64,000 bases of DNA from Hyphomicrobiaceae bacterium. Its GTDB lineage: Bacteria; Pseudomonadota; Alphaproteobacteria; Rhizobiales; Hyphomicrobiaceae. Below, piece by piece: positions 11,936 to 21,724 of this stretch; positions within the stretch are counted from its first letter, which is position 1; the number at the start of each line of letters is the position of its first letter. The notes below the pieces were generated by a model. The model ran no database searches. It worked only from the letters and a program-made list of their open reading frames with translations, and was not told where the DNA came from. The position numbers were made by a program, and so were the translations under genes. Location: assembly GCA_021730785.1 (NCBI GenBank), contig JAKFWF010000046.1, positions 1-64,000 on the forward strand. The letters are read 5' to 3'.

Positions 11936-12988
11936 TCAGCCGTTTGATTTCTGCGGCTTTGCCTTCTGGTTCGCGGCTTTCTTCTTCGCCGGCTTTTTCA
12001 GACTTGGCGCGTCTGGCGTCGGATCGAGAGGCCCGCGGCGTGGTCCGGCGCCGACACCGGCAGCGGTTCCGTCGTACAATTCCGCCAACCCGCGTGGGCC
12101 GATGTAAGGCACGAAACCAAGATCCTTGACGCGCTTCACGGCGTCGGCAACGAATTCCGGCTTGGTCAGATACTCGATGACGAAGATCGCCTTGCCGGCA
12201 TTCTTGGCGCTGGTCAGCAGTTTGCTGGTATGGGCGATGTCACCGGCTGGATTGATCTTTTCGGTGTGGCTGATGCCATAAACGAGGTCTTCCTTGGCGA
12301 TGCCGTCGATCGCCTTCACGTAGTTCGGATAGTCGAGCAACTCCTCCGCATTCTGCGCCAGGATCAGCGCATCCGACTTCTTGGAGCGGATGTAGTTGGC
12401 GAGCTTGATGATGAAATCGGTCATCTGCACGCGCTTCTCGGTCGTATCGCCGTAATAATAGTAGGCGTCCACGCGATCGATATAGAAGCCGTCGAAGCCG
12501 GAATTGATCACCTGGTCGGCGAACGACTTCGGTCCACCCATGATGATGTTCTGCCAGGTCGGATCCCAGTATTTCACCAGGAAGTTGCCGCCCCACTGCT
12601 TGTTTTCCTTGCCGACCCACGACGGCTTGGTGCGGTTCCACTCGGGCTTCCAATAATAGCGGTAGTTCTCGGCTTCGCCGACGCTGAAATAGGCGATGAC
12701 CAGACGGCGGCTGCCATCCGGCTTGATCTTCATCCGCTCGACCTCTTCGCGCGTCAGCGGGATTTCCTTGCCCACCGGGAACTGCTCGCTGTCGATCACC
12801 ACGAGATCATAGGGGGAGGCCGCGATCTTTGCCTGCTGATCCGGCCCGAGGTTCTTCAACTGGAACGCCCAGGACTTGGCCTTCAACAGCCCGTTGGGGC
12901 GATCCTGCGCGGCGACCTCGTTCACGCTATATGCCGACACACCGGCGAGCGCTGCCAGCGCTGCCAAACCGTTAAGCAACCGACGCAT
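11936..12988 (-). CDS. Secreted GH114/TM1410-like putative glycoside hydrolase
   Basis: A 350-residue protein with a Sec signal peptide (hydrophobic segment ending near 'NEVAAQ') and a TIM-barrel domain of the endo-alpha-1,4-polygalactosaminidase/TM1410-MJ1477 group. Evidence: 'SWAFQLKNLG', 'YDLVVIDSEQ' (acidic residue after strand 2), 'LVIAYFSVGEAENYRYYW' (S-x-G-E motif), 'GFDGFYIDRVDAY' (second acidic cluster) and 'ALILAQNAEELL'. The C-terminus is a Lys/Ala/Pro-rich tail. The family likely hydrolyses galactosaminoglycan-type exopolysaccharide; the substrate here is inferred. Start chosen at 12988 with AGGGGAG upstream. Its paralogue is the adjacent upstream gene. Confidence 0.8.
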   Translation of the reverse strand: MRRLLNGLAALAALAGVSAYSVNEVAAQDRPNGLLKAKSWAFQLKNLGPDQQAKIAASPYDLVVIDSEQFPVGKEIPLTREEVERMKIKPDGSRRLVIAYFSVGEAENYRYYWKPEWNRTKPSWVGKENKQWGGNFLVKYWDPTWQNIIMGGPKSFADQVINSGFDGFYIDRVDAYYYYGDTTEKRVQMTDFIIKLANYIRSKKSDALILAQNAEELLDYPNYVKAIDGIAKEDLVYGISHTEKINPAGDIAHTSKLLTSAKNAGKAIFVIEYLTKPEFVADAVKRVKDLGFVPYIGPRGLAELYDGTAAGVGAGPRRGPLDPTPDAPSLKKPAKKKAANQKAKPQKSNG

Positions 12989-13102
12989 GTGATCCCAACT
13001 CCCCTGACGACGGGCGTGTCCCATCGATTTCGCAAACACAATGCAACAGGTGGGCCATGCGACGCAACTAAGGCAGATGCGCCCGAACGGCCACGGCCGC
13101 TT

Positions 13103-14272
13103 CTACCACGTCGTGCCCTTGGCACAATTCGCCTTCGCATATTCCGACGTGCCCACATCCTTCTTGAGATCGACGGGCGCGGTTGGATCATTGCCATCGA
13201 GCGCCCGCGGCTGGAACGTCGGCACCAGGCCGCGCGACAGCATCTCCTTGCGCGCTTCGTTCAAGGCGGCGGTGGTCTGCAGGTATTCGACGGCGAATAC
13301 CGGCTTCCATTCCCACAGAAGTAGGTCGAGGCGTTTCTGCGCCGCGTTGATCTCTTGGCTGGGATTGCGCTTACCGGTCTCGTGGGCGCCATGAAGCAGA
13401 TCTTCGCGCCCCAATCCATCGATCACCGCGCGGTAGGTTGGTTCACTCAGCAGATCGTCGGCGTTCTGCGGCAAGACGAAAAAACCTGGCTTCATCGCCC
13501 TCGCAGTCGCTGACAGGTCGGTCACGAACTGGATCATGTCGTCGCGGGCGGAGTCGCGGTCCGGATACTGATCGTAGATGTCGACGCGGTCGAGATAAAC
13601 GCCGTCGAAGCCCGCTTCGACGATGCGCTTCAAGTAGGCCTTGCGGCCGCGCCAGATTAGATCCTTCCAACTGTCGTGCCAGAACATCACTTTGTGGGCG
13701 CCGGGCCATTGGCAATTTTCCGGGCCCAGCCACTCGGGCGGGTCCGACTTCCATTCCTCTTTGAAATAGTAGCGGAACTGCTCCGCTTCGCCGATCGACA
13801 TATAGGCGATGACGAACCGTTTCCGGCCATCGGGGCCGGTCTTCAGGCGGGCGACTTCCAGTGGCGTGAGGGGAATTTTGCCGCCGCCGGTTGCATAGTC
13901 GATCACGAGCGCATCGGCCTTGACCTTGGCCAGCGCGTCGACGTTGCCCTTGTCCAACTGGTAATGCCACGACTTCACAGCATACAGCGGACGCATGCCA
14001 CGCTGGTGGGCAAGCCAGTGGCCGGCAGTGTCGCTCCAGGTCCAGGCGCAGAGCAAGGCGAGGACGGCCGCACCACACAGCGCAACGCGACGCCGCGCCA
14101 GTCCATCGAGCGCTGCCCACCAGGTGCCCAGCGACTTCAAGAGCGAGCCGATCGCAGTGACGATGCCAAGCACAGCCGGCCGGATCATCAGCCACGCCGC
14201 ACCGCCGATGATGTAGAAACTCTCGGCCAGCTCGATCGCCTTCGCCCGCCAGCCGCTCGGTTGATTGGCCAT
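13103..14272 (-). CDS. Membrane-anchored GH114/TM1410-like putative glycoside hydrolase
   Basis: A 389-residue paralogue of the downstream gene. It differs at the N-terminus: two hydrophobic segments (about residues 18-45 and 62-80) instead of a cleavable signal, so the catalytic domain is probably held at the membrane. The barrel repeats the family motifs in order: 'SWHYQLDKGN', 'DALVIDYATGGG', 'FVIAYMSIGEAEQFRYYF', 'GFDGVYLDRVDIYDQY', 'FFVLPQNADDLL'. Both genes face the same way with about 114 bases between them, consistent with tandem duplication and a shared role in polysaccharide turnover. Confidence 0.8.
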   Translation of the reverse strand: MANQPSGWRAKAIELAESFYIIGGAAWLMIRPAVLGIVTAIGSLLKSLGTWWAALDGLARRRVALCGAAVLALLCAWTWSDTAGHWLAHQRGMRPLYAVKSWHYQLDKGNVDALAKVKADALVIDYATGGGKIPLTPLEVARLKTGPDGRKRFVIAYMSIGEAEQFRYYFKEEWKSDPPEWLGPENCQWPGAHKVMFWHDSWKDLIWRGRKAYLKRIVEAGFDGVYLDRVDIYDQYPDRDSARDDMIQFVTDLSATARAMKPGFFVLPQNADDLLSEPTYRAVIDGLGREDLLHGAHETGKRNPSQEINAAQKRLDLLLWEWKPVFAVEYLQTTAALNEARKEMLSRGLVPTFQPRALDGNDPTAPVDLKKDVGTSEYAKANCAKGTTW

Positions 14273-14400: not shown

Positions 14401-15501
14401 ATGACCGCTGCCCCACACCCGATCCTCAATCCAGTGCGCAAATCGCATGTGGAGGGCGACTACCATGACCACGAGGTCAATCTCGCCCACCGCAACCATG
14501 GCTTCCTGCTGGAAGGCCTGCGCCACGACGTGACGCCGGCCGGCATGCACTACCTGCTGATCCATTTCGACGTGCCGTTCGTGCCAGCGCCTGACGCCTG
14601 GACGCTGTCGGTCGGCGGGCTGGTCGAGACGCCGCTGTCGCTGAAGCTCGCCGATCTTGCAGCACTGCCGCAGATCACCACCCGCGTCACGCTCGAATGC
14701 GCCGGCAACGGCCGCAGCCTCGCGCGGCCGCGCTGGCCGAGCCAGCCATGGCACGTGGAAGCCGTGGGCACGGCCGAGTGGACCGGTACGCCGTTGCGGC
14801 ACGTCCTGGGGCGCGCCGGGATCAAGCGGAACGCACAGGAGGTGGTGTTCACCGGCGCCGACCGCGGCTTCGATGCCGGGATCGAACATGACTACGGCCG
14901 CTCGCTGCCGGTCGCGATGGCGCTCAGCGACGACATTCTGCTGGTGACGGCCATGAACGGCCAGCCGCTATTGCCCCAGCATGGCGCGCCGCTGCGCCTG
15001 ATCGTGCCCGGCTGGTACGGCATGGCGAGCGTGAAGTGGCTCACCCGCATCGACGTCATCGACCACGCCTACCAGGGGTTCCAGCAGGTCGGCACCTACA
15101 TCTTCAAGCAGGTGGAGGGCGAGGCTGGCGTGCCGGTGACGACGATCCGCGTCAAGTCGCTGCTGGTGCCGCCGGGCATTCCCGACTGGTATTCACGGCG
15201 CCGCCTCGTCGAGCGCGGCACCGTTCCCCTGTTCGGCCGGGCATGGTCGGGCGCCGGCGTGCCGATCACCAAGGTCGAAGTCGGTATAGATGGTCGATTT
15301 TCGCCAGCCGAACTCGATTCCCCGGCCGGCAAATTTGCCTGGCGCGGCTGGCGCTTCGATTGGTCGGCCGAACCGGGCGAATACGAGTTGAGCTGCCGCG
15401 CGACCGACGCCAACGGCGATGTTCAGCCGCTCGGGCAGCGTTTCGACCGGGCCGGCTTCGGCAACAACACGGTGCACCGCGTGCCCGTGACGGTGCGCTG
15501 A
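14401..15501 (+). CDS. Sulfite-oxidase-like molybdopterin oxidoreductase
   Basis: A 366-residue protein of the sulfite oxidase superfamily. The molybdopterin domain holds 'TLECAGNGR' with the molybdenum-ligand Cys at position 100, then 'TGADRGFDAGIEHDYGRSLP', 'GQPLLPQHGAPLRLIVPGWY' and 'MASVKWLTRIDV'. The C-terminal Ig-like dimerisation domain follows from about residue 240 ('GVPITKVEVGIDG', 'FDWSAEPGEYELSCRATDA'). No Tat or Sec signal is visible, so it is probably cytoplasmic. Sulfite is the likely but unproven substrate. It lies close to a locus of sulfur-carrier genes (16445-21724) and may process sulfite from it, though it is not in one operon. Confidence 0.85.
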   Translation: MTAAPHPILNPVRKSHVEGDYHDHEVNLAHRNHGFLLEGLRHDVTPAGMHYLLIHFDVPFVPAPDAWTLSVGGLVETPLSLKLADLAALPQITTRVTLECAGNGRSLARPRWPSQPWHVEAVGTAEWTGTPLRHVLGRAGIKRNAQEVVFTGADRGFDAGIEHDYGRSLPVAMALSDDILLVTAMNGQPLLPQHGAPLRLIVPGWYGMASVKWLTRIDVIDHAYQGFQQVGTYIFKQVEGEAGVPVTTIRVKSLLVPPGIPDWYSRRRLVERGTVPLFGRAWSGAGVPITKVEVGIDGRFSPAELDSPAGKFAWRGWRFDWSAEPGEYELSCRATDANGDVQPLGQRFDRAGFGNNTVHRVPVTVR

Positions 15502-16371: not shown

Positions 16372-16444
16372 CGTGCACCCTCTCGCGCGCAAGTTCAACA
16401 CCCCTCGATCCCCGGCCGTGACGCTGGGCAACGGAGACCAACGA

Positions 16445-17128
16445 ATGCTGAGAGCTGACGACGTTTGGGATGCGGGCGGGCTCGGCTGCGGCGAGTTGGT
16501 GCTTGATCTGCGCGGGCGGCTGATGGCGATGCCGGGGCGCACGCTGCGGCTGATCGCCCAGGACCCCGGCGCGCCCGAGGACATCCCCTCGTGGTGCCGC
16601 ATGACCGGCCACCAGTTGCTGCAGTATGACGCGCCGTCGAACAGCTATTGGATCAAGGCGCGCGGCGAGGCGACGGGAACGTCGACAGCGGCAGATGAGG
16701 TCGAGCAGATCTATACGCCAAAGGTATTCGAGCTGGCGAAGTCGCTGGGCCCACCATCGCGGCTCGAGGCACCGGATGCGACCGCTCACGCGCGCTCGAA
16801 GCTATGCGGATCGGCGATCGAGATCGACCTCGGCCTGACGGGCGAGACCGTATCTGGCTATGCGCAACGCGTGAATGCCTGCCTGCTGGGACGCACCTCG
16901 GCCGCGGTCGTCGCCCAACAGATCATCGGCGCGACGCGCGGTGAACTGGCGGGTGTATCGCTGGCGATGCGCCACATGCTCGCCGGCACCGGTGCGCCGC
17001 CCACCGGCCGCTGGGCTGATCTCGCCGTCCTCGAACCCGTGCGCCTGCTGACTGCGCGGCACGCCTCGGCACTCCTCGTGTTCACCGCACTCGACCGCGC
17101 CCTCGCCGGCCAGCCAGCCGGTGAGTGA
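16445..17128 (+). CDS. TusA-like / IscU-like scaffold fusion protein
   Basis: A 227-residue two-domain protein. Residues 5-75 resemble TusA/SirA sulfur carriers but have 'GGLGCGELVLDLR' (Cys15-Gly) in place of the classic Cys-Pro-x-Pro, plus 'DIPSWCRMTGHQLLQ' with Cys51. Residues 90-220 resemble the NifU-N/IscU Fe-S scaffold: 'SKLCGSAIEIDL' (Cys121), 'VNACLLGRTSAAVVAQQIIG' (Cys146) and 'TARHASALLVF'. Where IscU has His-Cys in the third site this protein has His206-Ala207, so only two scaffold cysteines remain. TusA passes persulfide sulfur; IscU builds Fe-S clusters; the fusion suggests persulfide handling. GGAG lies upstream of the ATG. Convergent with the TusA-MetE gene. Confidence 0.82.
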   Translation: MLRADDVWDAGGLGCGELVLDLRGRLMAMPGRTLRLIAQDPGAPEDIPSWCRMTGHQLLQYDAPSNSYWIKARGEATGTSTAADEVEQIYTPKVFELAKSLGPPSRLEAPDATAHARSKLCGSAIEIDLGLTGETVSGYAQRVNACLLGRTSAAVVAQQIIGATRGELAGVSLAMRHMLAGTGAPPTGRWADLAVLEPVRLLTARHASALLVFTALDRALAGQPAGE

Positions 17129-17154: not shown

Positions 17155-18681
17155 TCAATGCCCCGACCGCAGGGCATGAGCTGCCTTGGCGATGACGGCG
17201 AGCTTGGCTTCGGCGCCGTCACAGCCGCAGATCGGATTGTCGGCGAACGTGGCAAAGCCGCAGTCCGGGTGAAGCAGCACGCGGTTCGAGCCGAATGCGT
17301 TCATTGCCTGCTTGATCTTGGCGGTCACGTCGCCGAGCGGTTCGATGTCGCCGTGCTTCTGGTTGACCACGCCGACGCCGATGAACGCGTCGTCAGGCAG
17401 GCCCTTCAGGATCGCCATCTCGCCGGCGCGTGGCGTGCACATCTCCAGCAGATAGGCGCCGACCTTCATCTTGGCCAGCGTTGCGATCAGCGGCTGGTAG
17501 TTGCCAGCCAGTGCCACCGTCTCGTCCGGCGTCCAGTTGCCGCGACACACGTGCAGCGCGATCCGCTCCCGCGGGAAGCCTGCGATCACCGCGTTGATCA
17601 AGGCGGCGGCAAAGCCCAGTTCGATCTCCGGTCCCCGTGATTCCGATAGCGCGCCGCACATGAAGCTCGGCTTCGCCTTGGCACCGGTGAAGACGACGTC
17701 GGTCAGCACCGGCTCGTCGAACTGTATGAGGCCGACGCCCGCCTCGAGCAGCTCGGCGACCTCCTCGCGCAGCACCTTGACGATGTCCTCGGCCAACGCC
17801 TCTCTGGTGTCGTAGGCGCGCTCGCGGATGCACTCCATCCACATGGTGCGGGTGAGCAGGTAGGGCCCGGGCAACGCCACCTTGACCGGCAACTCCGTCA
17901 GGGTGCGGGCGAAATCCACTTCGTGAGCGACCAGCGGGCGCGAGCGTGAAATGCGCCCGAACAGCGCGGGATGGCGCACATCTGCCGCCGGCACGTCGAG
18001 TGCGCGCAGCTCCTGCTCGAACTCTTCGGGGTCATCGACCAGTGGCAGCAAATCGGTCAGCGGAATGAGCTGGCAATTGTCGAGGCGGCTCGCGACGAAA
18101 CTCGCGTAGCTGTCGCGGCGCTGCTCGCCATCGGTGATGACATCGACGCCGGCACGCAGCTGCGAAGCAACCGCGAGGCGGACCGCGTCGTCGGCGGTGT
18201 CCTGGAACTGGCGTTCGTCGAGGCGGCCGGCGATGTGCTCGTGCATGGCGCCAACCATCCAGCGCGGTCGCGGCCAGCTGCCGATCCCCATCACCGAAAG
18301 GGCTTTGATCTTCGGCGCGGTGACGGGCGTCCGCTTAGGCCGCACGGTGGGCGCGGCGGCTGTCATGGCGGCGGCTCGTGGCGCTGCACTGGATGCAGTC
18401 GCCGCTACCTTGCCTCGGTCGGCCAACAGGCCCTTGCAGACGAGGAAGCTGCGCTGCTTGTCCGCCTTGGTCCACGACACCAGCTCGTTGCGTGTCAAGC
18501 GGCACCAGGCCGGCAGGTCCTCATCGACCGAGATCTCGGTCGAGCGGATCTCCAGCAATTGCCCCTGGGCCATGGGATCGATGTGCCGGCGGATCAGCAA
18601 CAGCAGGCCATTGCCGCAATCGAGATCGCCGCCATCGAAACTGACATCAGGCTTTTGGGTATGTGCGCTCGCCGGCTGCAT
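17155..18681 (-). CDS. TusA-like / core MetE (methionine synthase II-like) fusion protein
   Basis: A 508-residue fusion. Residues 13-85 are a variant TusA domain ('GGDLDCGNGLLLLIRRHID', Cys22-Gly; 'EDLPAWCRLTRNELVSW', Cys60), close to the one in the convergent gene. A Pro/Ala-rich linker (about 95-125) leads to the catalytic domain of cobalamin-independent methionine synthase, without its N-terminal folate half. All four zinc ligands are visible: His377 and Cys379 in 'IALHVCRGNW', Glu413 in 'YLLEMCTPRAGE', Cys474 in 'LLHPDCGFATF'. This fold transfers alkyl groups to a zinc-bound thiolate. Acceptor and donor are unknown. It starts inside the end of the ABC ATPase gene (35-base overlap), with GGAG upstream, so it belongs to that operon. 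Confidence 0.88.
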   Translation of the reverse strand: MQPASAHTQKPDVSFDGGDLDCGNGLLLLIRRHIDPMAQGQLLEIRSTEISVDEDLPAWCRLTRNELVSWTKADKQRSFLVCKGLLADRGKVAATASSAAPRAAAMTAAAPTVRPKRTPVTAPKIKALSVMGIGSWPRPRWMVGAMHEHIAGRLDERQFQDTADDAVRLAVASQLRAGVDVITDGEQRRDSYASFVASRLDNCQLIPLTDLLPLVDDPEEFEQELRALDVPAADVRHPALFGRISRSRPLVAHEVDFARTLTELPVKVALPGPYLLTRTMWMECIRERAYDTREALAEDIVKVLREEVAELLEAGVGLIQFDEPVLTDVVFTGAKAKPSFMCGALSESRGPEIELGFAAALINAVIAGFPRERIALHVCRGNWTPDETVALAGNYQPLIATLAKMKVGAYLLEMCTPRAGEMAILKGLPDDAFIGVGVVNQKHGDIEPLGDVTAKIKQAMNAFGSNRVLLHPDCGFATFADNPICGCDGAEAKLAVIAKAAHALRSGH

Positions 18682-19498
18682 GGGGATCTCCGTGGCCTGA
18701 GGATGCGAGGCTGTGCTCCGACGGCGCCGTGGCATAGAGCGCGGCGAAGGCGGCTTCATCGAGCGTAGCCGTTGCAGCGTCCATGGCAAGGCGGCCGCCC
18801 GCCATGCCGATGATGCGATCGGCGAAGGTGCGCGCGTAGCCGACCTGATGCAGGCTGCAGATCACGGTGACGCGGTCGGTGCGCGCGATGTCTTTCAGCA
18901 AGGCGAGAACGCCGGCGGCGGACGAGGGATCAAGGCTCGCCACCGGCTCGTCGGCAACGATCAACCGCGGTTCCTGCGCGAGCGCACGTGCGATCGCGAC
19001 GCGCTGCTGCTGGCCACCCGACAGCGTATCGGCGCGTTGGTGCGCCTGCTCCAGCATGCCGACCCGCTCCAGGCTCTCGAATGCCTTCAGCTTGTCCGCC
19101 CGCTCGAATTGCCGCAGCACGCCGCGCCACAGGGGCACATAGCCGAGCCGGCCGGCCAGCACGTTGTCGAGGGCCGTCAACCGCCGCACCAGATTGAACT
19201 GCTGGAAAACGACCGCGATCTTGCGGCGATCCTGCACCTCGAGTGCGGAAACATCGGCGTCACCGAAGCGCACGTGCCCGGCGTCGGGGCGCGCGAGCCC
19301 GGTGATGCAGCGGAACAAGGTCGTCTTGCCGGCGCCGCTCGGCCCGAGCACGGCCGTAAACCCACCAGCCGCCAGCGTGAAGCTGACCTCATTGATCGCG
19401 GTGCGCGTGCCGAACGCCTTGGACAGGCGCTCGACGACGAGGACCGGCGACGACGTTTCCATTGCCGGCTGGAGCAGCTGCTCGGTGCCATTGCGCAT
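18647..19498 (-). CDS. PhnC-type ABC transporter ATP-binding protein
   Basis: A 283-residue ABC ATPase of the phosphonate-importer (PhnC) subfamily: Walker A '[13 protein letters not shown]', Q-loop '[20 protein letters not shown]', signature '[17 protein letters not shown]' and Walker B '[13 protein letters not shown]'. '[19 protein letters not shown]' is typical of the PhnC group. It powers import through the PhnE-like permease upstream. The ATG at 19498 lies five bases after the permease stop; an ATG at 19462 is an alternative. Its 3' end overlaps the TusA-MetE start, tying the transporter to that enzyme. Confidence 0.9.
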
Positions 19499-19503
19499 TG
19501 CTG

Positions 19504-20316
19504 TCACACCAATTTCCGGCGCAACCAGCCCGACAGCCCGTCGAGCGCGGTGACAGCGATCAGGATGATGGCGACAATCGTGAAAAGGCGAGAGAAATCC
19601 AGCAGATCCATACTGTTCTTCAATTCGAGGCCGATGCCGCCGGCGCCCACGACCCCGAGCACGGTCGACGCACGCACGTTGAACTCCCACCAGAACAGCG
19701 ACGTCGAGAGCATCAGTGGAAGCAGGTCCGGCACCAGCGCGTAGGTGATCGACTGCAAGCGCCCGGCACCGGTGGCGCGGATGGCGTCATAGGGGCCGAG
19801 ATTGGCGCTTTCGATCTGGTCGGCGAAAAACTTCGCGGCCGTGCCACTGGTGTGGAAGGCGATGCCGAGCACGCCGGCAAACGGCCCAAGACCGACGGCT
19901 GCCACGAACAGCAGGGCGAACACGAATGAATCGATGCCCCTCAGCGCATTCAGCAGCCATCGCGTGGGGCGATAGAGGCGCGGGAACGGCGTGATGTTGC
20001 GGCTGGCAAGGACGGCAAGCGGCAGCCCGATCAACACGGCCATAGTGGTGCCGACGGCTGCCATGGCGACCGTCTCCGCCGTGCGCCACAGGAACAAGGG
20101 CATTTCCTGGTAGGCCGGTGGCCAGGCCGTGGCGAGCCAGTGCCCGATTTTTGGCAGGCCGGTAGCAAGCCGGCCCAGATCGAACTGCACGAGGTAGCCG
20201 GCCACCAGATAGAAAATGGCGATGCCGGCCGCGACCAGCATCCACCGGTAGCGGGCAAACGTCCAGGCGCTTTGCTGCGTCTCGAACTCGTGCAGGGCCT
20301 TGGCTGCTGCTTTCAT
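19504..20316 (-). CDS. PhnE-type ABC transporter permease
   Basis: A 270-residue membrane protein with about five or six helices. 'FLWRTAETVAMAAVGTTMAV' opens the transmembrane domain and 'YDAIRATGAGRLQSITYALV' is the EAA-type coupling loop with the conserved Gly; 'VLGVVGAGGIGLEL' is the PhnE C-terminal signature. It forms the channel of the importer encoded by its neighbours. The start at 20316 excludes a long Arg-rich stretch in the same frame. It follows the binding-protein gene after about 106 bases and precedes the ATPase by five. Confidence 0.9.
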   Translation of the reverse strand: MKAAAKALHEFETQQSAWTFARYRWMLVAAGIAIFYLVAGYLVQFDLGRLATGLPKIGHWLATAWPPAYQEMPLFLWRTAETVAMAAVGTTMAVLIGLPLAVLASRNITPFPRLYRPTRWLLNALRGIDSFVFALLFVAAVGLGPFAGVLGIAFHTSGTAAKFFADQIESANLGPYDAIRATGAGRLQSITYALVPDLLPLMLSTSLFWWEFNVRASTVLGVVGAGGIGLELKNSMDLLDFSRLFTIVAIILIAVTALDGLSGWLRRKLV

Positions 20317-20422
20317 GAGTGCATCCAGTCCTTCACCACAGAGGCCGCGGGGGCTGATGCTGGACGCTTGGCCAGCGGTAACGCCGACAGGCGATTGATT
20401 CCGCTGGCCGAACTCACGGTGC

Positions 20423-21310
20423 TCACGTTGCCTTTGCCTTGATCTTGCCAACGGCGATGCCGGCCTTCTCGATCGAGGTGTAGGTCGCATGCGTGCCCGG
20501 GACGAAACCGGTGTAGCGGTTCGGCAGCAGCGTCTTTGCCTGTTCGGGCGTGATCGCGGTGAGGATCGCCTGCACCTTGGCCTTGAGATCGGCGGACGCG
20601 TTGGCCGGCAGTGCGATCGCGTCGTTGGGCAGCGGGTCCGACGTCCACACGATCTTGTTTGAGCCTTCCTTGACCTTGCCCGATGCGATCATGGCATTGC
20701 GGTTGCGGTCAAAGTCGGTCGCCATGTCGACCTGCCCGGCCGACACGGCGATCTCGTTGGCAGCGTGCGAGGCCCCCTCGCTATACGTCCAGAACGTCTT
20801 CGGATCGATCTTCCAGACTTCCTTGGCGTAGTAGGTCGGGATCAACCAGCCCGACGTCGAACCGATGTCGGCGAAGGCGATGGACCGGCCCTTGGTGTCG
20901 TCGGGGAACTTAGCGGCCGCAAGGTCGGGCTTGGCAATGATGATTGCGTGATAGATCGGCTTTTCGTCGTACTTGACGGTCGCGACCGCCTGGCAATTGG
21001 TAGCGTTGTTGGCGATGATGTAACCCCACGGACCCATCCAGGCCACGTCGAGCTGGCCACTGCCCATGGCCACTGCCATGCCGGCCCAATCGGTCGTGAC
21101 GGCGAGTTCGAATTCGCCGCCAAGCTCCTTGGCGAGATGAGAAAAAAGTGGGCCGAACGACTTTTTCGTATCTTCCGGGTTCGGCAACAGCGGGCCGACG
21201 CCAAATTTCCACTTCTTCGTTTGTGCGATGGCCGGTCGAAACAGGGATGTGGAAGCTGCCGCAACGCCGGCGACCGTGGTGGTGATAAGCGTGCGTCGAT
21301 CAAGACTCAT
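20423..21310 (-). CDS. PhnD-type periplasmic substrate-binding protein
   Basis: A 295-residue binding protein with a signal peptide containing twin arginine ('SLDRRTLITTT') and a cleavage-like 'AIAQ'. The mature part has the PhnD fold motifs: 'WKFGVGPLLPNPEDTKKSF', 'ELAVTTDWAGMAVAMGSGQ', 'DVAWMGPWGYIIA', 'IAFADIGSTSGWLIPTYYAK' and 'TDPLPNDAIALPA'-like 'TSDPLPNDAIALPA'. The family includes phosphonate, phosphite, and proposed selenate binders, so the ligand cannot be assigned. Its partners here are sulfur-carrier genes, not C-P lyase or phosphonatase genes. Second gene of the operon, 52 bases after dsrE. Confidence 0.88.
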   Translation of the reverse strand: MSLDRRTLITTTVAGVAAASTSLFRPAIAQTKKWKFGVGPLLPNPEDTKKSFGPLFSHLAKELGGEFELAVTTDWAGMAVAMGSGQLDVAWMGPWGYIIANNATNCQAVATVKYDEKPIYHAIIIAKPDLAAAKFPDDTKGRSIAFADIGSTSGWLIPTYYAKEVWKIDPKTFWTYSEGASHAANEIAVSAGQVDMATDFDRNRNAMIASGKVKEGSNKIVWTSDPLPNDAIALPANASADLKAKVQAILTAITPEQAKTLLPNRYTGFVPGTHATYTSIEKAGIAVGKIKAKAT

Positions 21311-21361: not shown

Positions 21362-21724
21362 TCAGTAGCTGATGCTGGGCGCACCGTCCGACATGAACTC
21401 GACGAGCTTGGCGCCGCCGACGATCACGGCACCGGGCACGAGGTTGTTCTCGTCCAGCGCGCGCTTCTTGAAGCAGGGCGAGCACACGTAGATCTTGCCG
21501 CCGGCCTTGGCAAAATTGGTCATCAGTTCGGTCAGGGCTGCAAAGCCTGACTCATGGACGCTGTCGGCGACGCCCTTTTGCGATAACCGCGTGCCCTCGG
21601 TCGAAAGGAACACTACCGTGTCCTTGTCGGACGCCACGGCCGCATTGGCGACCACGAACGCCACGGTCGCCTTGTCCGGATCGTCCGTCGCGCATGTGAG
21701 ACTGACGACATATTTTCCTGGCAT
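21362..21724 (-). CDS. DsrE family sulfur-carrier protein
   Basis: A 120-residue cytoplasmic protein with the DsrE/DsrF-like fold: 'KYVVSLTCATDDPDKATVAF' start, 'DTVVFLSTEGTRL', then 'KIYVCSPCFKKRALDENNLV' with Cys81 and Cys84 in a C-x-x-C arrangement, and 'VGGAKLVEFMSDGAPSISY' end. Cys81 is in the position of the sulfur-binding cysteine. DsrE proteins exchange persulfide sulfur with TusA, so the pairing with TusA-type domains in the same operon is functionally coherent. First gene of the dsrE-phnD-phnE-phnC-tusA/metE operon, with GGAGAG ahead of the ATG and a promoter-like sequence further upstream. Confidence 0.88.
   Translation of the reverse strand: MPGKYVVSLTCATDDPDKATVAFVVANAAVASDKDTVVFLSTEGTRLSQKGVADSVHESGFAALTELMTNFAKAGGKIYVCSPCFKKRALDENNLVPGAVIVGGAKLVEFMSDGAPSISY

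Follow-up and report, generated by a model that had tools for sequence, protein, structure and literature searches.

A TusA–MetE-core fusion family, probably part of a bacterial route for freeing and delivering selenium

A gene in a 64,000-nucleotide stretch of Hyphomicrobiaceae DNA, here called the window, encodes a TusA domain joined to the catalytic core of the methionine synthase MetE. This fusion is a real, widely conserved family, and its link to selenium is fairly secure. We propose that the fusion probably belongs to a hitherto unrecognised pathway of selenium release and delivery and is not an ordinary maker of methionine. How selenium enters bacteria and is brought to SelD has yet to be explained; according to reviews of 2022 and 2026, prokaryotes have no known transporter that is specific for selenium and of high affinity (PMC9312934; PMC13188914). 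The family presents a genetically testable module, comprising an enzyme, carriers, and candidate transporters, in the culturable Paracoccus versutus, Nitrospirillum, Xanthobacter, and Azospirillum. It would extend the MetE zinc fold to a new use and would correct database annotations that name its members methionine synthases. In the part of the literature that was covered, on TusA in connection with demethylation, selenium, or methionine synthase, we found neither a description of such a fusion nor an experimental study of any family member.

The fusion protein and its conservation

The fusion gene occupies positions 17155–18681 on the minus strand, where the frame from the ATG at 18681 gives exactly 508 residues plus a stop; the plus strand of the same interval is interrupted by stops. 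The preliminary description, which gave no strand, had proposed a 508-residue protein in which a Pro/Ala linker connects TusA to the MetE core, and that architecture is borne out. The gene start overlaps the 3′ end of an upstream PhnC-like gene by approximately 35 bases. Specifically, all on the minus strand, the protein consists of the TusA domain (residues ~12–86; 18424–18648), a Pro/Ala-rich linker (residues ~87–125; 18307–18423), and the MetE catalytic core (residues ~126–500; 17182–18306), the last recognised by Pfam, PDB, alignment, and structure matches. Pfam Meth_synt_2 covers residues 235–479 (E=1e-25). The Pfam TusA match to residues 27–83 (E=1e-5) falls slightly under the gathering score, and thus we regard the domain as a divergent TusA. 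C22 (codon 18616–18618) and C60 (codon 18502–18504), both minus strand, align with both TusA cysteines, and the TusA fold with its invariant N-terminal cysteine is present: both residues occur in 61 of 61 homologues. The CPxP motif of TusA is replaced by CGNG in 60 of these and by CGSG in one.

Full-length MetE comprises two (beta/alpha)8 barrels, with a folate-binding N-terminal half. The fusion holds the catalytic half alone, and its N-terminal part is TusA; the folate domain is indeed missing, as had been claimed. All NCBIfam MetE-type models score far under their cut-offs, the best being PRK04326 (152.9 versus 406 bits). A phmmer search of the PDB returns 3RPD first, a core-only MesD from Shewanella with selenomethionine and the nearest solved relative, followed by Thermotoga maritima MetE. 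An AlphaFold2 model built with the 61 homologues (mean pLDDT 79.9) has a disordered linker, with pLDDT <50 at residues 93–112. Its best structural match is likewise 3RPD (VIA-align Z 35.1, 323 residues, rmsd 2.6); MetE proteins come next (Z 28–34), then UROD and MtaA-type methyltransferases (Z 21–22).

Starting from three seed sequences, a scan of genomes yielded 141 relatives, and we used the best 80 loci (57–74% identity). These best 80 of 141 span alpha-, beta-, and other proteobacteria, Binatota, Acidobacteria, Planctomycetes, Myxococcales, and Obscuribacterales. The alignment used for conservation contains 61 homologues from several phyla, at 59–74% identity. Along with C22 and C60, seven core residues are invariant in all 61. 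Four are the zinc ligands that the preliminary description reported as kept: H377 (17551–17553), C379 (17545–17547), E413 (17443–17445), and C474 (17260–17262), all minus strand. The remaining three, S135, E186, and D322, form the homocysteine site and align with the selenomethionine-binding residues of MesD. Measured against the window protein, mean identity is 81% in the TusA domain, 70% in the core, and 26% in the linker. That TusA exceeds the core in conservation while the linker varies freely shows selection for the fusion and argues against a join produced by chance or by assembly.

The core has three additional cysteines, C203, C284, and C342, the last within an insertion, that are invariant in the fusions. 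They are present in none of 14 unfused cores (~30% identity), which have the same zinc and homocysteine residues as the fusions. We also considered and rejected the idea that the fusion is a selenoprotein: the only in-frame stops found deep within the coding sequence, in two copies, are TAG at E323 and D291, not UGA at a cysteine. These two copies come from metagenome-assembled genomes (MAGs) of Planctomycetota and Binatota (L096 11664 and L098 11486, respectively), and they could reflect a pseudogene, sequencing error, or another genetic code.

Core-only methionine synthases exist, and the survey that defines four families of them, MesA–MesD, does not mention TusA (PMC7857596). The fusion shares with the Mes enzymes a MetE core without a folate domain, the HCEC zinc ligands, and the S/E/D homocysteine residues, at ~25% identity. 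Unlike them, it has a TusA domain, three additional invariant cysteines, links to DsrE and selenium genes, and hosts that bear MetH. With every MetE catalytic residue present and core-only precedents at hand, the fusion could be a fifth folate-independent methionine synthase in which TusA brings the methyl donor or a reductant and the connection to selenium is indirect. We consider this improbable. MetH is present in 44 of 46 fusion hosts and full-length MetE in about 13, so we rejected a housekeeping methionine synthase as the main role; the fusion is probably not a general methionine synthase, and its hosts would not need it for methionine. Furthermore, this reading leaves the gene order with selD and selA unexplained, and of the loci inspected, only those of Binatota had recognisable methionine genes next to the fusion.

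Linkage to selenium genes

Gene order beside selD and selA is a stronger argument for the selenium link than co-occurrence. Known sel genes lie within 10 kb of the fusion in only a few of the 80 loci, in two lineages. In a Bradyrhizobiaceae MAG (L024), the order is TusA-DsrE-c5-c3-fusion-selD, where c5 and c3 are two membrane or secreted proteins considered below, followed by selC (tRNA-Sec), selB, and selA. In Paracoccus (L064, L079, and L101), the fusion is directly upstream of selA-trxB. On a Paracoccus ferrooxidans plasmid, for example, the order is cysteine desulfurase, TusA, DsrE, two hypothetical proteins, fusion, selA, and trxB, with tRNA-Sec and selB near the fusion, which is annotated as a methionine synthase. 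Between selD and the tRNA-Sec/selB/selA genes of L024 (11054–12718, minus strand) are genes for a GcvH/lipoate-binding-like protein, a second DsrE, and a lipoate-ligase-like protein, the lipoyl names being assigned by eye. This arrangement hints that a lipoyl carrier is encoded within a selenium locus.

Co-occurrence was assessed in 46 fusion genomes, taken from the highest-scoring homologues; these genomes include relatives, and kinship was ignored. SelD is encoded in 43, SelA in 38, YbbB in 17, and SenB in eight, and every one of the 46 has at least one selenium marker. The three genomes without SelD (G294, G316, and G321) each have SelA or YbbB, so that, with the confounders discussed below, the family occurs essentially only alongside SelD or other selenium-use genes. 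By comparison, in a background of 289 sampled Alphaproteobacteria, SelD is found in 60 and SelA in 40. Among alphaproteobacterial genomes of at least 3.5 Mb, SelA is present in 16/18 with the fusion versus 30/97, and SelD in 17/18 versus 37/97 (Fisher p ~6e-6 each, uncorrected for relatedness, on a genome list read from a SelD table that omits 37 genomes without a match). Because all 46 genomes have some marker, across different selenium traits, the common factor appears to lie upstream of all traits, at selenium supply.

Two comparisons temper the co-occurrence argument. In Burkholderiaceae, SelD is present in 10 of 10 fusion genomes versus 211 of 268 (79%) in the background; we give this within-family test no weight, given that SelD is already so frequent there. 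In addition, unfused MetE-like cores come from genomes that are SelA-positive in 10 of 12 cases. We rejected these cores as a second selenium family, as their contexts lack selenium genes, with the exception of one selD (G194), which points to confounding by lifestyle. Presence in SelA-positive genomes alone is thus weak evidence, since unfused proteins behave likewise. The exceptional unfused core (L117; G194:C112:94000-109000) lies ~3–4 kb from selD, an arrangement that may be due to chance.

In the genome from which the window derives, SelD is fused to an oxidoreductase, and its gene apparently shares an operon with a putative selenate transporter whose TIGR04553 match is over the cut-off. 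This region (L113 7330–14583, minus strand; G000:C8:78000-97000) comprises genes for the TIGR04553 putative selenate-binding protein, a PhnC-like ATPase, a double PhnE-like permease, the oxidoreductase-SelD fusion, a small membrane protein, and a phosphorylase-like protein, the last sharing 59% identity with a protein encoded close to the Binatota modules. SelA, YbbB, and SenB, and with them any known selenium use, were not found in this genome, the absence of SelA being judged by family search alone. Among the 46 fusion genomes, only this one and one other (G303) are without all three.

Carriers and transporters around the fusion

On the minus strand of the window, the gene order is DsrE, PhnD-like substrate-binding protein, PhnE-like permease, PhnC-like ATPase, and fusion. 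The DsrE-family protein (120 residues; 21362–21724; Pfam DsrE E=8e-15) carries a conserved VCSPCFKKR motif that was found in 74 sequences. The PhnD-like protein (20423–21310; Phosphonate-bd E=2e-49) is a candidate importer component for a selenium compound. It is followed by the PhnE-like permease (19504–20490; TIGR01097 above cut-off) and the PhnC-like ATPase (18647–19690; TIGR02315 above cut-off over ORF residues 83–319), the true start of which is probably near 19440. The arrangement of PhnD-like binding protein, PhnC, and PhnE is that of the putative selenate ABC transporter. However, the window's binding protein belongs to another subfamily, scoring below the TIGR04553 cut-off (E=3e-21; 75.8 versus 250 bits).

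Convergent with the fusion, on the plus strand, is a gene for a second TusA protein (16373–17128; Pfam TusA E=8e-9) with a C-terminal degenerate SufU/IscU-like domain (TIGR01994 E=5e-12). It is the counterpart of the lone TusA gene found upstream in other loci, where a lone TusA often accompanies DsrE and the fusion. We rejected the TusA-SufU combination as a widespread feature: outside the window, TusA with a SufU/IscU-like domain was found in none of the other 80 loci. Other long lone TusA genes have N-terminal extensions, which are cysteine-rich in three.

In 70 of the 79 loci with a full-length fusion, a DsrE gene lies upstream on the same strand. Transporter genes are more variable: 25 of the 79 have a PhnC/D/E-like ABC system alone, 22 have the c5/c3 pair alone, two have both, and 30 have neither. 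Taken together, these tallies indicate that DsrE and the fusion are the core of the module and that the transporter is accessory. The c5 protein is a 180-residue membrane protein with a conserved CxxC, and c3 is a 525-residue secreted, C-terminally anchored protein. The two (L079 630–2768, with equivalents in about 20 loci) are a possible selenium uptake pair. Sequence searches with c3 gave nothing in Pfam or NCBIfam and nothing significant in the PDB, and its model (pLDDT 74) matched only a Methanosarcina S-layer domain in Foldseek, with low TM.

The preliminary description had suggested that the fusion places a protein persulfide beside the zinc alkyl-transfer site. The placement of a carrier thiol there stands; the cargo is more probably selenium than sulfur, because the family co-occurs with SelD, SelA, YbbB, or SenB and lies next to selD or selA in two lineages. 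A sulfur persulfide carrier acting on organic sulfur would be consistent with the fact that TusA, DsrE, and the cysteine desulfurase encoded with the TusA-DsrE module in Paracoccus and Amaricoccus are sulfur-transfer proteins in general, and with a SorA-like molybdoenzyme gene nearby in the window. This sulfur-based role is nonetheless highly doubtful, as it explains neither the selenium-use markers in every fusion genome nor the adjacency to selD and selA.

Other genes near these modules deserve mention. The molybdoenzyme gene of the window (14401–15501, plus strand) encodes a SorA/SoxC-like oxidoreductase of the sulfite-oxidase family, below curated cut-offs, and related small or MsrP-like molybdenum proteins are encoded in the vicinity of the Binatota fusions and of selD in the window's own genome. 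At 11936–14272 on the minus strand, the window also encodes a neighbouring pair of secreted or membrane proteins that resemble each other and, judged by eye, glycoside hydrolase family 114.

Proposed chemistry and related systems

The hypothesis is that the fusion is a zinc-dependent methyl- or alkyl-transfer enzyme that frees selenium from a methylated organic compound onto its own TusA thiol, for use by DsrE and SelD. Drawn from conservation, gene order, and co-occurrence, this chemistry is quite possible, though we stop short of calling it probable. The smallest selenium-handling unit would be DsrE and the fusion, usually with a lone TusA and often with a transporter. The cell would import an organic selenium compound, most likely a methylated one, which would be retained at C22 or next to it, for example as C22-S-Se-CH3. 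As in MetE, homocysteine would be bound at the zinc site of the core in the form of a zinc thiolate. This homocysteine would take the methyl group, becoming methionine and leaving selenium on TusA as a selenosulfide or perselenide. C284, C342, C203, and the CxxC motif of DsrE could then pass selenium to SelD, which would make selenophosphate to serve the selenium traits of the host, whatever these are. Dealkylation fits best with the combined homocysteine and zinc site, the fused chalcogen carrier, the extra invariant cysteines, DsrE, and the link to all selenium traits. More tentatively still, the modules could together constitute a widespread bacterial selenium-acquisition system, in which a dedicated importer serves a zinc-dependent demethylase with homocysteine as acceptor, and selenium moves from the enzyme's own TusA to DsrE and on to SelD.

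The same selenium linkage and family-specific cysteines would suit a carrier or discriminator that cleaves no C–Se bond. In that case, the zinc site would prefer selenide, perselenide, or selenol over sulfur, with TusA and DsrE delivering the selenium to SelD; the putative selenate-type transporter encoded beside selD in the window's own genome is in line with such a role. We view it as unlikely, given that the complete homocysteine pocket (S135, E186, and D322), invariant across the family, would be needless.

That pocket, and the selenomethionine bound in the nearest structure, raise a different prospect: reverse salvage of selenomethionine or methionine, in which the core demethylates selenomethionine to selenohomocysteine, with selenium reaching SelD later. 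In Binatota (L085 and L089–L094), metY-metX-metW and a phosphorylase-like gene are oriented divergently to the module, an adjacency that could also be taken to favor such salvage. Reverse salvage is nevertheless a poor prospect in our estimation. No partner to accept the methyl group was found, and TusA with DsrE suggests transfer of selenium as such rather than of an amino acid. Moreover, to our knowledge, PhnD-like binding proteins are not known to bind amino acids. For the demethylase that we favor, metX-metY-metW would represent a supply of homocysteine.

Two known systems resemble the proposed module. YedF (TIGR03527), which joins TusA and a CxxC-bearing DsrE domain, co-occurs with SelD and has been tied to selenium (PMC5322559). 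The fusion module likewise combines TusA and DsrE with a CxxC motif and co-occurs with SelD. It differs from YedF in that TusA and DsrE are separate genes and not a single chain, the TusA motif is CG rather than CPxP, and a second TusA is joined to a MetE core. In Methanococcus maripaludis, selenium depletion raises expression of genes that are annotated as uroporphyrinogen decarboxylases and assigned to the SdmABC methyl-selenide transfer system, along with that of TusA/TusD genes (PMC11097638). The likeness to the fusion lies in the proposed role, freeing selenium from a methylated selenide, and in the UROD/MetE-type fold. The Sdm proteins are annotated as uroporphyrinogen-decarboxylase-like and belong to methanogens, whereas the fusion keeps the homocysteine site of MetE, and we saw no corrinoid partner for it. 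Under the proposed chemistry, the fusion would be the bacterial equivalent, free of corrinoid, of the demethylation of methylselenides by methanogens.
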